Source: Winogradskyella schleiferi
GTDB taxonomy: Bacteria > Bacteroidota > Bacteroidia > Flavobacteriales > Flavobacteriaceae
Length of the DNA: 64,000 nt
Direction of reading: 5' to 3'
Assembly (NCBI RefSeq): GCF_013394655.1
Contig: NZ_CP053351.1
Coordinates: 3,512,001 to 3,576,000, forward strand
The notes under the pieces are model-generated. The model worked only from the letters and a program-made list of their open reading frames with translations, did no database searches and was not told the origin of the DNA. Position 1 is the first letter of the stretch; each line of letters begins with the position of its first letter. Positions 41,943 to 62,060 of this stretch are shown here, piece after piece. The translations under genes and the position numbers were made by a program.

Positions 41943-43025
41943 CTAATGATTAATAATCTTTTCTTGATGATTAATGGATTCTTGATGAATCGCTTTAAAC
42001 ATCCTTAAGATAAACTCTTCACTAAGTCCTTTTTCTTCACCTTCTAAAACCATTTTGCCTAAAATCTCGTTCCATCGTTTGCTCTGTAAAACAGCAACGT
42101 TCTTTTGTTTTTTAAGTGTTCCTATACCATCAGCAACCTTCATACGTTTACCCAACAATTCAATAATTTGATTATCAACCACATCGATCTGAGCTCTTAA
42201 ATTGTTCAATTCTGTGTTGTATTCTGCTTCTGGATCTGATTCTTTTCTAATCTTCAAGTCTTTCATAATCTGAACTAAACTTTTTGGTGTTACTTGCTGT
42301 GCAGCATCACTCCAAGCGTTTTCAGGATCATAATGTGTTTCTATCATTAAACCATCAAAATTAAGATCTAAAGCCGTTTGGGATACATCAAATATCATAT
42401 CTCTATTACCTGTGATATGCGATGGGTCATTGATCAATGGAAGGTCAGGGAATTTATTCTGAAATTCAATAGCGATTTGCCATTCCGGAATGTTTCTATA
42501 TTTCGATTTTTCATAAGTAGAAAACCCTCTATGAATGGCACCAAGATTTTTAACACCAGCCGAATGTAATCTTTCTATGCCTCCTAACCACAATGCTAAA
42601 TCTGGATTTACCGGATTTTTCACTAATACTATTTTATCCGTTCCTTCTAAGGCATCCGCTAATTCTTGCATTATAAATGGACTCACTGTTGAACGTGCGC
42701 CAACCCATAATAAATCCACATCATATTCCAATGCTAATTTTACATGAGCCGCATTGGCAACTTCCGTACAAGTTTTCATGCCTGTTTCTTCTTTTACCTT
42801 TTGCAACCATTTTAAACCTAAAGCGCCAACACCTTCAAAATTTCCTGGACGTGTTCTAGGTTTCCAAATACCTGCTCTGTAGTAATTGACATCGGTATCT
42901 TTTAGCTCGTGTGCTATTTTTAATACTTGTTCTTCAGTTTCTGCGCTACATGGTCCTGCTATTACTAGTGGATGATCTAGTTTCATATCATCTAACCATG
43001 TTCTCATTTCTTTTGTGTTTTTCAT
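41943..43025 (-). CDS. Bifunctional DAHP synthase / chorismate mutase type II
   Basis: The N-terminal DAHP synthase (about 1-260) belongs to the KDO8P-synthase-like type: VIAGPCSAETEEQV, YYRAGIWKPRTRPG, HRGFSTYEKSKYR, PLINDPSHITGNRD and MIETHYDPENAWSDA. The C-terminal chorismate mutase (about 270-350) contains LRAQIDVVDNQIIELLGKRM. It has 360 residues. It feeds and begins to use the shikimate pathway in one protein and is the last gene of the pheA operon. The C-terminal mutase may also confer feedback control by prephenate. Confidence 0.95.
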   Translation of the reverse strand: MKNTKEMRTWLDDMKLDHPLVIAGPCSAETEEQVLKIAHELKDTDVNYYRAGIWKPRTRPGNFEGVGALGLKWLQKVKEETGMKTCTEVANAAHVKLALEYDVDLLWVGARSTVSPFIMQELADALEGTDKIVLVKNPVNPDLALWLGGIERLHSAGVKNLGAIHRGFSTYEKSKYRNIPEWQIAIEFQNKFPDLPLINDPSHITGNRDMIFDVSQTALDLNFDGLMIETHYDPENAWSDAAQQVTPKSLVQIMKDLKIRKESDPEAEYNTELNNLRAQIDVVDNQIIELLGKRMKVADGIGTLKKQKNVAVLQSKRWNEILGKMVLEGEEKGLSEEFILRMFKAIHQESINHQEKIINH

Positions 43026-43114: not shown

Positions 43115-43966
43115 TTATTGTATTCCGTTTAAAATATCTTTTATATGATTTGTATCTTTCATTTCGTTAAAAACCGCATCAAAATCTTCATCTTCCATCA
43201 GCTTTTTAAAATGTTGTAAATTTGAAATATATTCATTTAATGTTTCAATGACATTGGTCTTATTATGTTGAAAAATGGGTGTCCACATGGCTGGTGAACT
43301 TTTTGCCAAACGTACTGTACTTTCAAATCCACTACCTGCCATATCAAAAATATCGCGTTCATTTTTTTCTTTATCGATGACCGTTTTCCCTAACATAAAT
43401 GCACTGATATGTGATAAATGAGACACATAAGCAATATGTTTATCGTGTGCTTTTGGATTCATATATCGAATTCGCATGCCTAAATCCGAAAACAATTTCA
43501 AAGCTTTTTCTTGAAGCTTAAAAGCCGTTTCTTCAACCTCACAGATAATGTTGGTTTTGCTTTTATACAAATTATGAAGCGCTGCTCTTGGACCAGAATG
43601 TTCCGTACCTGCAATAGGATGCGCTGCCAAATAATTTCTGCGTTTGGGATGGTTTTTCACTGCAGCACAAATATCTTCTTTTGTTGAGCCAGCATCAAAC
43701 ACCAAGGCCTCATCTGAAATATGATCCAAAACTTTTGGTAAAACGCTTAGTGTTGCATCCACTGGAATTGCCAAAATGATCAAATCGGCACTTTCTAGAG
43801 CTTCAAACTTAGATTTATGATCAATAATTTTAAGATTTATGGCTTCGTCTAAATGGGTTTCTCTTTTGTCAATTCCATATATATTGCTTTCAGGATATAA
43901 TTTCTTAATATCCAAAGCGAAACTTCCACCGATTAATCCTACTCCTATTATAAAAATGTTATTCAT
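43115..43966 (-). CDS. tyrA: Prephenate dehydrogenase
   Basis: TyrA oxidatively decarboxylates prephenate to 4-hydroxyphenylpyruvate. The Rossmann motif MNNIFIIGVGLIGGSFALDI starts the protein, and HPIAGTEHSGP, AYVSHLSHISAFMLG and DMAGSGFESTVRLAKSSP are conserved. The frame is open upstream to 43996, but those ten codons would be a translation of the family A repeat (43967-44005); the ATG at 43966 fits the Rossmann fold. That gives 283 residues. Confidence 0.94.
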   Translation of the reverse strand: MNNIFIIGVGLIGGSFALDIKKLYPESNIYGIDKRETHLDEAINLKIIDHKSKFEALESADLIILAIPVDATLSVLPKVLDHISDEALVFDAGSTKEDICAAVKNHPKRRNYLAAHPIAGTEHSGPRAALHNLYKSKTNIICEVEETAFKLQEKALKLFSDLGMRIRYMNPKAHDKHIAYVSHLSHISAFMLGKTVIDKEKNERDIFDMAGSGFESTVRLAKSSPAMWTPIFQHNKTNVIETLNEYISNLQHFKKLMEDEDFDAVFNEMKDTNHIKDILNGIQ

Positions 43967-44179: not shown

Positions 44180-45322
44180 TCACACTCTCGCAATCGCCTG
44201 TTTCAAAATTTCTTCTGTGGCGCACAATGAAAAACGCACATAACCCTCGCCATTACTCCCAAACACCGTTCCTGGTGTTATAAAAATGGAATGTTCTTTT
44301 AATACCAAATCAGTAAATTCTTCAGATTTTAAATGTGGCGGTAATTTGGCCCAAACGAACAATCCTGTGGCGTCTTTATCATACGTGCATTTAAGATTAT
44401 CTGCCAATTTCCAGATTAATTCCCGGCGCTGTTGGTAAACACTATTCAAACTTTGAAACCACATGTCTGAACATTTTAAAGCCTCGATAGCTCCTTTTTG
44501 AATGCCATAGAACATTCCAGAATCCATATTGCTTTTCACCCGTAAAACAGCATTTACAAATTCGTAATTCCCGACTAACATTCCTACGCGCCAACCAGCC
44601 ATATTAAAGGTCTTACTTAAAGAATTCAACTCTAAACAAACGTTTTTAGCATTTTTATATCTTAAAATACTGATGGGATTGTCATTCAACACAAAACTGT
44701 ATGGATTGTCATTCACGATTAAAATATCATGTCGTTTTCCGAATGCAATGACTTTATCATAGAACAAATTATCCGCATTACTACCTGTTGGCATATGTGG
44801 GTAATTGATCCACATAATTTTTACACGCTTTAGATTCATGCGTTCTAACTCCCCAAAATCTGGCAACCAATTTTGATCGGCCTTTAAATTGTAATAAACA
44901 GGTTTTGCTTCTAGCAATTTTGTTACAGCAGCATATGTTGGATAACCAGGATTTGGAACCAATACTTTATCACCTTTGTTCAAAAACGCCATAGAAATGT
45001 GCATTATTCCTTCCTTACTTCCCATTAAAGGCAACACTTCCGTTTGAGCACTTAAATCTACGCTATAATGTCTTTTATAAAAATTTGAAATTTCTGCTCT
45101 CAATTCTGGCAAGCCTTGATAACTTTGATATTGATGCGCTTTTTCATCCACCAAACAGTCTTGAAGCGCCATTGAAGCTTTTACAGGTGGCTCAAAATCC
45201 GGACTTCCAATTCCTAAATTTATGATTGGTTTTCCTTGCGCTTTTAAAAGTGCAACTTCCCTCAACTTTTTAGAAAAGTAGTATTCTTCTACGTTTTGTA
45301 ATCGTTTGGCTACTTCAATCAT
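44180..45322 (-). CDS. Class I/II PLP aminotransferase of the aromatic operon
   Basis: A fold-type I aminotransferase of 380 residues. The PLP lysine is in ELNSLSKTFNMAGWRVG; GIGSPDFEPP and the tyrosine/asparagine segment WINYPHMPTGS are typical, and RFSLC near the end binds the carboxylate. It overlaps pheA by four bases (ATGA), so it is translationally coupled. Position suggests transamination of phenylpyruvate and hydroxyphenylpyruvate (or prephenate), rather than a general aspartate role. Confidence 0.9.
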   Translation of the reverse strand: MIEVAKRLQNVEEYYFSKKLREVALLKAQGKPIINLGIGSPDFEPPVKASMALQDCLVDEKAHQYQSYQGLPELRAEISNFYKRHYSVDLSAQTEVLPLMGSKEGIMHISMAFLNKGDKVLVPNPGYPTYAAVTKLLEAKPVYYNLKADQNWLPDFGELERMNLKRVKIMWINYPHMPTGSNADNLFYDKVIAFGKRHDILIVNDNPYSFVLNDNPISILRYKNAKNVCLELNSLSKTFNMAGWRVGMLVGNYEFVNAVLRVKSNMDSGMFYGIQKGAIEALKCSDMWFQSLNSVYQQRRELIWKLADNLKCTYDKDATGLFVWAKLPPHLKSEEFTDLVLKEHSIFITPGTVFGSNGEGYVRFSLCATEEILKQAIARV

Positions 45323-46146
45323 CGTCTTCCATTTTTATATTCGCCTAAAACCTTAAAATTTTCTGCCATCAATTTCATAATGGAATTTGCTTTTTCATAA
45401 TCTTTATAAACTTCAAAAGTGACATCCACAAAAAAGGCATATTTCCATGGTGTTTCAATCTTTGGCAAGGATTGTATTTTAGTTAAATTAAGTTTACAGT
45501 CACTCAACACGTTTAAAATCGCTGCTAAACTTCCGCGTTTGTGATCCAATTCAAATTTCAACGACGCTTTATTAATTGTATTTATATCCTTATCCTCATG
45601 ATTTCGTTTTACAATTACAAAACGTGTTTCATTGTGTTTTATAGTCTGAATACTTTCTGCTAAAACATTCAGATGATATAATTCAGCTGCATTTTTACTG
45701 GCAATAGCTGCGATGCCTTTCAATTGTTGCTCTTTAATTTGTTTAGCGACATCTGCCGTGTCCTTAGCTTCCACCAGTTTTATATGTGGATAATTTTTAA
45801 AGAATACTTTACATTGTAACAACGCCATGGGATGCGAATGAACCTCTTTAATATCTTCAATATTCTGATTCGCCAAAGCCATTAAACAATGCTCAATGCC
45901 TAAATAATACTCACCTACGATACTCAACTGATGATTGTCAATAAGTGCATAATTAGGAATTATTGAACCTGCAATGGAATTTTCCAATGCCATAACAACT
46001 TCATCGGTCTGCATTTCCAACAACGAATTTATAACACCATCAAAAGACATGAACTCAACAACCTCAGCATCCGAATTGAAATAATTTTGGGCAACTATAT
46101 GATGAAATGAGCCTTTAATTCCTTGTATGGCTATTGGTTTTTTCAA
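45319..46146 (-). CDS. pheA: Prephenate dehydratase
   Basis: PheA converts prephenate to phenylpyruvate. The periplasmic-binding-like catalytic region (about 1-180) includes IQGIKGSFHHIVAQNYF, ALENSIAGSIIPNYALI and the NETRFVIV (TRF) motif. The C-terminal ACT domain (about 190-275; FELDHKRGSLAAILNVLSDC, KIQSLPKIETPWKYAFFVDV) binds phenylalanine, including an ESRP-like segment read here as SLPK. It has no fused chorismate mutase. It heads the operon and is preceded by the attenuator at 46236-46356. Confidence 0.93.
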   Translation of the reverse strand: MKKPIAIQGIKGSFHHIVAQNYFNSDAEVVEFMSFDGVINSLLEMQTDEVVMALENSIAGSIIPNYALIDNHQLSIVGEYYLGIEHCLMALANQNIEDIKEVHSHPMALLQCKVFFKNYPHIKLVEAKDTADVAKQIKEQQLKGIAAIASKNAAELYHLNVLAESIQTIKHNETRFVIVKRNHEDKDINTINKASLKFELDHKRGSLAAILNVLSDCKLNLTKIQSLPKIETPWKYAFFVDVTFEVYKDYEKANSIMKLMAENFKVLGEYKNGRR

Positions 46147-46164
46147 TTTTTTTTCTTTTTATTA

Positions 46165-46210
46165 GATCCTGAAATACTGAAACAAATTCAGCACTAGTAA
46201 ATTCAGGATC
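46165..46210. repeat. Family E nested palindrome between attenuator and pheA
   Basis: The outer arms GATCCTGAAAT and ATTCAGGATC enclose CTGAAACAAATTCAG. It lies between the attenuator terminator and the pheA start, so it is present only in read-through mRNA. Confidence 0.6.
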
Positions 46211-46235
46211 ATATCAGCTTTTAAAACGTTGCTAT

Positions 46236-46300
46236 AAAAAAAGTCCCGATCAAATCGAGACTTTATAATTTATATTTTAAATAAAACATACTAAGTCTCG
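46236..46300 (-). promoter_or_regulatory. Attenuator of the pheA-aminotransferase-tyrA-DAHP synthase operon
   Basis: On the minus strand the terminator is AAGTCTCG (46263-46256), loop ATTTGAT, CGGGACTT (46248-46241) and a T-run. Upstream, CGAGACTT (46300-46293) is perfectly complementary to the first terminator arm and would form a mutually exclusive antiterminator. The antiterminator has eight Watson-Crick pairs; the terminator has seven plus one G-U. The antiterminator arm starts five bases after the leader peptide stop codon, where a terminating ribosome would cover it. This is the classical ribosome-mediated attenuation layout. Confidence 0.88.
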
Positions 46301-46305
46301 TTCCT

Positions 46306-46356
46306 TTAGCTAAAAAAGAAATAAAACCAGTTGTAATATGTTTTAGATATATTCAT
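46306..46356 (-). CDS. Aromatic amino acid leader peptide (16 residues)
   Basis: ATG at 46356 to TAA at 46306 encodes MNISKTYYNWFYFFFS. Eight of 16 residues are aromatic (three Tyr, one Trp, four Phe), clustered in ten consecutive codons. It precedes the terminator/antiterminator pair upstream of pheA. Shortage of charged tRNA-Phe, -Tyr or -Trp should stall the ribosome and leave the antiterminator arm free. Multi-amino-acid control suits an operon containing DAHP synthase. No Shine-Dalgarno sequence is visible, as is usual in Bacteroidota. Confidence 0.88.
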   Translation of the reverse strand: MNISKTYYNWFYFFFS

Positions 46357-46527
46357 ATTTTTCCACATCGGTGGATATCTGTAATTAAGTGGCTAATGTA
46401 ATTATTATTTTTACAAATCAAAATTGTTGTATTGTTTTTTTAGGTATTATTCTAAAGTTTTAAAGATTTATCAATAATTGCAATACAATATTCGGAATTA
46501 CTTATTTTTGAACAAATTTCTATTTAT
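46357..46527. other. AT-rich intergenic spacer, attenuator / gldA
   Basis: The spacer separates the divergent pheA operon and gldA and must hold both promoters. I see no convincing TTTG-N19-TAnnTTTG pair on either strand, and no repeats. Confidence 0.5.
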
Positions 46528-61667: not shown

Positions 61668-61900
61668 ATAGCTATAATATTAGTTTTTATCCTCGTGGTA
61701 TGTTCGTTTCTGCCCGAGCAAAAGTAGCTTGCAAGTTAGTGATCTTAACTAAGTATACGAAACTTCGTTTTTTGAGGTTGTATATTTTTTATAGTAAAAA
61801 TAATAAAAATCAAGTATAATCATTTAAACCCAAAGAAAACATAAAAAACGCAAAATGAATTCAGATTCCATTTAATTTATATATTTTTGTCCAATCAAAA
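61668..61900. other. AT-rich spacer, alginate lyase / metK, with metK promoter
   Basis: The lyase leader contains TATAGCTATA (61670-61679). TATTTTTG at 61882-61889 (plus strand) matches the -7 consensus and would start the metK transcript near 61896, right at the structured leader. No gene was found in the rest. Confidence 0.5.
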
Positions 61901-62060
61901 TTAAGAGGAAAAATTTGTCTGATTGCAACCTCTCGTGCTGACTTGTTCAGCACCTGTTCTCAAGAACAGATCCTGAAATAAATTCAGGATAAAAAATGCT
62001 AAAGCAGTAAGTTTAGGACTTCTCTAGCGACCCAGCAATCTCAAGTTTTTTTTATAATAA
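61900..62060 (+). promoter_or_regulatory. Structured metK leader, SAM-I-clan riboswitch candidate
   Basis: The leader shows, in order, AGAGGA (61904-61909), a tiny P2-like loop holding CTG, GCAACC (61925-61930), and a variable region of three tandem hairpins (61935-61990). Then follow GCTAAAGCAG (61998-62007), hairpin AAGT/ACTT (62009-62021) and TTCTCT (62020-62025) able to pair with AGAGGA. GCAACC, GCUAAA, a CTG:CAG pseudoknot and the closing stem reproduce the SAM-I layout. A T-run follows at 62046-62053. The exact family is uncertain. Confidence 0.55.
61935..61990. repeat. Three tandem hairpins (family E) inside the metK leader
   Basis: GTGCTGA/TCAGCAC (61935-61953), TGTTCT/AGAACA (61955-61968) and ATCCTGAA/TTCAGGAT (61970-61990) follow each other. 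The third matches the family E arms at 46165-46210. They occupy the place of the variable P3 stem in the proposed riboswitch. Confidence 0.7.

Follow-up and report, generated by a model that had tools for sequence, protein, structure and literature searches.

A putative ribosome-mediated attenuator with an aromatic leader peptide upstream of the pheA operon in Winogradskyella and other Bacteroidota

The pheA locus and its leader region

The window, that is, the whole 64-kb stretch of DNA from the marine flavobacterium Winogradskyella schleiferi that we analysed, carries on its minus strand the gene order pheA - aminotransferase - tyrA - DAHP synthase/chorismate mutase (Table 1). The aminotransferase is presumed to act on aromatic substrates on account of its place in this operon. 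Upstream of pheA lies a 16-codon open reading frame, from an ATG at 46356-46354 to a TAA at 46308-46306, in which the codons Tyr Tyr, Trp, and Phe Tyr Phe Phe Phe put 8 aromatic residues within 10 codons. Its stop is separated by five bases (aggaa) from an arm, arm 2, whose exact complement, AAGTCTCG (46263-46256), lies within the first strand of an intrinsic terminator spanning 46264-46236, with an 11 bp hairpin (46264-46254 paired with 46250-46240) and seven T. The original prediction had consisted of these parts, a half-aromatic 16-codon leader, an arm five bases on, and a complementary terminator arm with a T-run, and its coordinates proved exact when both strands were read again. The minimum-free-energy fold added a piece absent from that prediction, a 12-bp 1:2 helix between 46345-46334 and 46293-46282; the complete textbook set of 1:2, 2:3, and 3:4 pairings is present at the element.

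Table 1. Features of the pheA leader region and of the operon downstream of it, in the order of transcription.
Feature	Position in window	Strand	Description	Basis
Likely operon promoter	46393..46423	-	TTTTG (46423-46419), 18 bases, TACATTAG (46400-46393)	sequence; predicted
Small hairpin in 5' UTR	46362..46375	-	TCCAC-CGAT-GTGGA, with in-frame upstream ATG (46368)	sequence
Leader peptide ORF	46306..46356	-	MNISKTYYNWFYFFFS + TAA stop	sequence, read on both strands
Arm 1	46334..46345	-	TAAAACATATTA, within the leader (Tyr codons); partner 46293-46282	fold, compensatory changes
Arm 2	46293..46300	-	CGAGACTT, 5' arm of the antiterminator	sequence, swap test, folding
Arm 1 partner	46282..46293	-	TAGTATGTTTTA, directly after arm 2; makes the 1:2 helix	fold, compensatory changes
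Arm 3	46254..46264	-	AAAGTCTCGAT; alternative partners arm 2 (antiterminator, via 46263-46256) and arm 4 (terminator)	sequence, swap test, co-variation, folding
Arm 4 and T-tract	46236..46250	-	ATCGGGACTTT (46250-46240) + T-tract (46242-46236), intrinsic terminator	sequence, co-variation, folding
pheA	45319..46146	-	prephenate dehydratase, TTG start	NCBIfam prephenate dehydratase match, 195.5 bits, below the model cut-off of 219
Aminotransferase	44180..45322	-	overlaps the end of pheA; presumed aromatic aminotransferase	best NCBIfam match, LL-diaminopimelate aminotransferase subfamily, below cut-off
tyrA	43115..43966	-	prephenate dehydrogenase	NCBIfam match, 390 bits, above the cut-off of 295
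DAHP synthase/chorismate mutase	41943..43025	-	DAHP synthase fused to chorismate mutase	both models match, one per part, below cut-offs

The downstream box of the putative promoter differs by one base from the flavobacterial -7 consensus TAnnTTTG, as it is given in the available part of PMC9723704, and TACATTAG or TACTTTAG was picked as this box in 42/50 loci of the genus. The promoter, with a start site near 46389, is likely on this sequence evidence. The palindrome CCAC..GTGG of the small hairpin recurred in 13/50 genus loci. The ATG at 46368, 12 bases upstream of that at 46356, would add MWKN- to the N-terminus of the leader. An in-frame upstream ATG occurred in 15/50 genus loci, and as the other 35/50 have none within 60 bases upstream of the conserved ATG, 46356 is the likelier start.

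The region folds at -30.1 kcal/mol, 4.5 standard deviations lower than its dinucleotide shuffles (mean -16.05, sd 3.11), and none of 200 shuffles reached so low a value. Such an element could nevertheless be a plain intrinsic terminator that happens to follow an aromatic ORF, the hairpin only lowering expression and the ORF sensing nothing. AT-rich DNA yields many Phe and Tyr codons, and on both strands of the window 10 short ORFs have a 10-codon stretch with 6 or more aromatic residues. However, only one of the 10, the pheA leader, has a terminator with a complementary arm behind it. The controls gave no full set of parts, either in 256 reversed regions (5 partial) or in 1280 shuffles (50 partial).

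Distribution of the element among relatives

Regions upstream of pheA were searched with fixed rules, which asked for a leader of at most 45 codons starting with ATG and having at least 6 aromatic residues in 10, a terminator, and an arm of at least 5 pairs. The search for PheA covered 60 genomes of the genus (58 with a match), 120 of the family (107), and 118 of the phylum (102), and upstream regions were examined for 50/58, 107/107, and 30/102 of the matches, the genome of W. schleiferi being counted in each set, so that it belongs to the genus set as well as to the family set. Genus rows G001, G015, G023, G027, G044, G045, G051, and G056, which are incomplete genomes or partial matches, were dropped, and nine loci of the same family from the phylum search (L060-L067, L073), three of them from genomes already in the family set, are outside the final counts.

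The full set of leader, terminator, and arm 2 was found at every Winogradskyella locus (50/50), at 101/107 Flavobacteriaceae loci (leader by the rules in 103, terminator in 102), at 9/12 loci of other families in the class, and at 2/7 loci of other classes; in a separate collection of named loci it was present in 77/80. Among the family misses, L334 and L318 do have leaders, at distances from pheA of about 650 and 1050 bases, outside the 600 bases covered at first. L052 has a leader and a terminator and no arm at the threshold, and at L132 the leader is accompanied by a hairpin that falls short of the threshold. No leader by the rules was found at L143, the sequence of which starts 377 bases before pheA, and L139 showed neither a leader nor operon partners of pheA within the 9.5 kb examined. 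The misses in the named collection were L246, with a GTG start, L220, cut by a contig end with the arms kept, and L253, which corresponds to L334. At L082, from another family of the class, a leader was present and no terminator was found by the rules. Repeat-like DNA of about 0.45 to 0.85 kb lies between the attenuator and pheA at L318 and L334. The original prediction had been staked on the conservation of the leader and the arms in relatives; both are kept far outside the genus, and the arms co-vary.

In two loci of the class set, L068 and L069, pheA is an inner gene of an operon that runs DAHP synthase, two ORFs resembling aroB and aroA (named by eye), pheA, aminotransferase, tyrA. Here an aromatic leader with its terminator and arm is located directly before the DAHP synthase gene. 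As the attenuator precedes DAHP synthase in these rearranged operons, with pheA inside, it appears to go with the operon head. The rearranged order, with DAHP synthase first and the aromatic attenuator at the head, is recorded under L320 and L321; near the edge of L321 there is another ORF that resembles DAHP synthase. In other classes, three of the five leaderless loci had their neighbourhood examined and carry lone or fused pheA, and the two leader-bearing loci have the operon. The PheA proteins of these two, L072 and L076, where the pheA operon comes with an aromatic leader, are 44 and 41% identical to that of W. schleiferi, others of the phylum being lower; transfer of the operon together with its attenuator is possible.

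A covariance model built from 27 near relatives found a single copy of the element in the genome of W. schleiferi (one contig, 4.56 Mb). It matched in only 4/149 genomes of the class and missed G170 and G174, of the same family, in which the leader was seen both by eye and by the rules, and for these reasons the search upstream of pheA was preferred to it.

The amino acids that the leader would sense are the products of the operon, since pheA, tyrA, and DAHP synthase/chorismate mutase lie downstream of it, and DAHP synthase/chorismate mutase was found downstream in 40/40 chosen family loci with a leader. The suggestion that the mix of three aromatic amino acids suits the operon content was put too strongly: the Trp codon does not track DAHP synthase. 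Trp is present in 73/103 family leaders, the other 30/103 having Tyr and Phe only, and as a mark of operons with DAHP synthase it was rejected: the gene for DAHP synthase/chorismate mutase is present in 20/20 chosen operons with Trp-lacking leaders just as in 20/20 with Trp-containing ones.

Selection, geometry, and the predicted switch

Within the genus, the count of loci with an aromatic residue is 49 or 50 of 50 at every one of the 8 positions. Four of these codons vary in their third base, and the changes are synonymous or exchange one aromatic residue for another (Tyr/Phe). Across the family and the class, aromatic residues are kept whereas codons, peptides, and arm sequences change, and the leader is found at the operon head even after rearrangement. 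Both observations speak against an ORF that is aromatic by chance, which we hold to be very improbable.

The arms change together. Arm 2 paired with the arm 3 of its own locus gave a mean of 17.6, compared with 14.3 for the arm 3 of other species (n = 113); own exceeded the swapped mean in 108/113 loci, and in 5000 permutations, which ignore relatedness, none was as high, the highest being 15.35. In a like test, also with permutations that ignore relatedness, arm 1 gave 18.1 with its own partner and 15.1 with swapped ones (n = 112; 0/5000 as high, highest 16.15). Of 36 sequences prepared, 27 were aligned, the nine most diverged listed being left out. In this alignment the 1:2 and 3:4 helices contain 7 pairs with changes on both sides, a number that 0/500 shuffles equalled. 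The 2:3 pairing showed no co-variation above shuffles in this close alignment (174/500), in which its arms are nearly invariant. The compensatory changes that had been proposed as a check were thus found for 1:2 and 3:4 in the alignment but not for 2:3, the evidence for which rests on the wider swap test.

Between the last aromatic codon and arm 2 there are 11 nt in 49/50 genus loci; in the wider set the gap is 9 to 17 nt in 98/112 loci. The position of the stop codon is far from constant: within the genus, the stop precedes arm 2 by 5 or 6 nt in 29 loci, and in the other 21 the arm begins 10 nt before the ORF end; in the wider set the start of arm 2 precedes the ORF end in 108/112. A PheA tree of 77 named loci requires 8 changes of this state, at least 5 of them on well-supported branches. 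The stop codon has moved repeatedly while the spacing between the aromatic codons and arm 2 was kept.

The edge of a ribosome lies about 12 nt past the first base of its A-site codon. With this edge, arm 2 is accessible whichever aromatic codon the ribosome stalls at, and it is covered when the ribosome has reached the stop codon. When the RNA made before arm 4 was folded without the footprint, stalling at Trp or at the last Phe gave an antiterminator of -13.1 kcal/mol, and the stop codon left -2.5 kcal/mol. The geometry had been said to work, and footprint folding indeed returns the predicted switch between a stalled ribosome and one at the stop codon. If no ribosome is placed on the RNA and arm 4 has yet to be made, the minimum-energy fold retains the antiterminator instead of the full 1:2 helix. 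With arm 4 in place, the equilibrium minimum is the terminator in every case, so the antiterminator would have to win kinetically, with timing deciding the outcome, as it does in known ribosome attenuators.

These features suggest the following course of events. A ribosome would begin on the leader close behind RNA polymerase. When Phe-, Tyr-, and Trp-tRNA are ample, it would reach the stop codon and cover arm 2; arm 3 would then pair with arm 4, and transcription would end at 46236-46242. When an aromatic tRNA is short, the ribosome would stall in the codon run and hold arm 1, so that arm 2, just outside the footprint, could pair with arm 3 as the antiterminator, and the polymerase would read on into pheA, the aminotransferase gene, tyrA, and the DAHP synthase/chorismate mutase gene.

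Interpretation and relation to known systems

Taken together, the anatomy of the element, its conservation, the co-variation of its arms, and its geometry point to a ribosome-mediated transcription attenuator of an aromatic amino acid operon, to which we give a probability of roughly 0.93. Its leader is predicted to be translated, and its termination to respond to the supply of Phe, Tyr, and Trp.

A different sensor, such as a T-box, a riboswitch, or a protein-bound leader that happens to contain an ORF, would also account for a structured 5' region conserved in near relatives, and PMC9723704, in its available part, calls the pheA element an original cis-regulatory element with no mechanism given by name. 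Against such a sensor, the locus gave no Rfam match at threshold, and the sole family with such a match in the window, SAM-II, lies elsewhere. Moreover, what is conserved is the type of codon and three mutually exclusive arms rather than one aptamer sequence, and the architecture extends far wider than the few class genomes recognised by the near-relative covariance model. We regard another sensor as scarcely probable, even less so than a chance ORF. No better placed is a conserved short ORF acting mainly by translational coupling or reinitiation into pheA, not termination: leader ORFs shortly before start codons are frequent in Bacteroidetes according to the available part of PMC4833913, but about 160 bases separate the leader stop from pheA, a terminator intervenes in 102/107 family loci by the rules, and the distance from terminator to pheA ranges from 6 to 336 bases in 113 loci.

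On the preferred reading, attenuation by a ribosome on the leader, we lean towards a broader view, drawn from the comparisons above: the element may represent one old class of Bacteroidota attenuators, at least class-wide, that senses the aromatic amino acids together on behalf of a chorismate-pathway operon, follows the head of the operon rather than pheA, and has its stall codons at a constant distance from the antiterminator arm even as the stop codon moves. If this is true, ribosomes of a phylum without Shine-Dalgarno sequences would track RNA polymerase closely enough to control termination, and the element would offer a built-in test of transcription-translation coupling in such bacteria. 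Stop codons that move at a fixed codon-to-arm spacing, and attenuators that head rearranged operons, would serve as natural experiments on what the switch needs. The analysis also resolves a putative attenuator left unclaimed by Rfam at threshold, in a phylum where attenuators are known mostly from predictions in the literature searched.

Other attenuators were sought in the regions of hisG, three chorismate-binding genes, ilvD, and thrA of the same genome. The hisG gene is preceded (L272:1277-1339, plus strand) by a His leader, MTFSQIHHHHFHTCIQASWN, that has both a terminator and an antiterminator arm, with no Rfam match at this locus up to E 0.1. Before a trpE-like gene (L275, minus strand) there is a Trp leader, MNINTNHTWWWNFSNLR, followed by a terminator; this leader has no arm by the rule used, and it matches the Rfam family Bacteroid-trp (RF01692) with 56.5 bits, above the threshold of 49. 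As his and trp leaders are also present, leader-peptide attenuation is probably used more than once in this genome. In the ilvD region nothing passed the rules. Upstream of an 824-codon aspartokinase/homoserine dehydrogenase gene (thrA; L271, minus strand) we noted by eye a Thr/Ile-rich ORF ending in MTISMFFISTIITRLGNL, with a TTACCC..GGGTAA hairpin, no long T-run, and no clear terminator, possibly a Thr/Ile leader of another type. The only Rfam match at threshold in the window is a SAM-II (long loop) riboswitch aptamer (61899-62012, plus strand; 50.3 bits, threshold 44).

The comparative attenuation study of Lopatovskaya and others of 2010 may hold predictions for Bacteroidota. A 2021 study of Flavobacterium psychrophilum (PMC9723704) describes, in its available part, a conserved structured 5' element upstream of pheA, in other genera too, with no Rfam match, and clues of leader-peptide attenuation at amino acid operons. 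This element shares its gene and family with ours, and no leader peptide, arms, or mechanism is given by name in the same part of that text. In Bacteroides thetaiotaomicron, short ORFs in long 5' UTRs are described as reminiscent of attenuation leader peptides, with no arms or aromatic operon described in what is available of PMC7366714. In the open-licence literature, as far as it was accessible, we found no paper describing the leader peptide and arms of the pheA element or its spread outside the family. The original prediction had stressed the value of a clear example where attenuation is known mainly from predictions; the searches did return mostly predictions, but the element is less unreported than that implied. 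Its novelty is limited, since PMC9723704, in its available part, names both the pheA element and leader-peptide attenuation, and Rfam holds a trp leader from Bacteroidota.

That family, RF01692, is a peptide leader RNA of the same phylum (PMC2864571, available part). Unlike the mixed pheA leader it has a run of Trp (WWW) only, and it is absent among the 8 Rfam matches (E up to 10) at 46100-46500. The best match at the locus was RF01859 Phe_leader, which lies over the arms and the terminator and follows the same logic before a phenylalanine gene; with 30.3 bits, the gathering score being 55, membership in this family was rejected.

The E. coli type of ribosome-mediated attenuator is represented by pheL-pheA, trpL, and hisL. 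The Winogradskyella element shares with it a short ORF with many control codons, overlapping 1:2, 2:3, and 3:4 helices, and an intrinsic terminator before the matching biosynthetic operon. It differs in that members of its phylum lack Shine-Dalgarno sequences (PMC6847099, available part), in its mixed run of Tyr, Trp, and Phe codons, in governing DAHP synthase/chorismate mutase, tyrA, and an aminotransferase besides pheA, and in the place of its stop codon, which in some species precedes the start of arm 2 and in others follows it.
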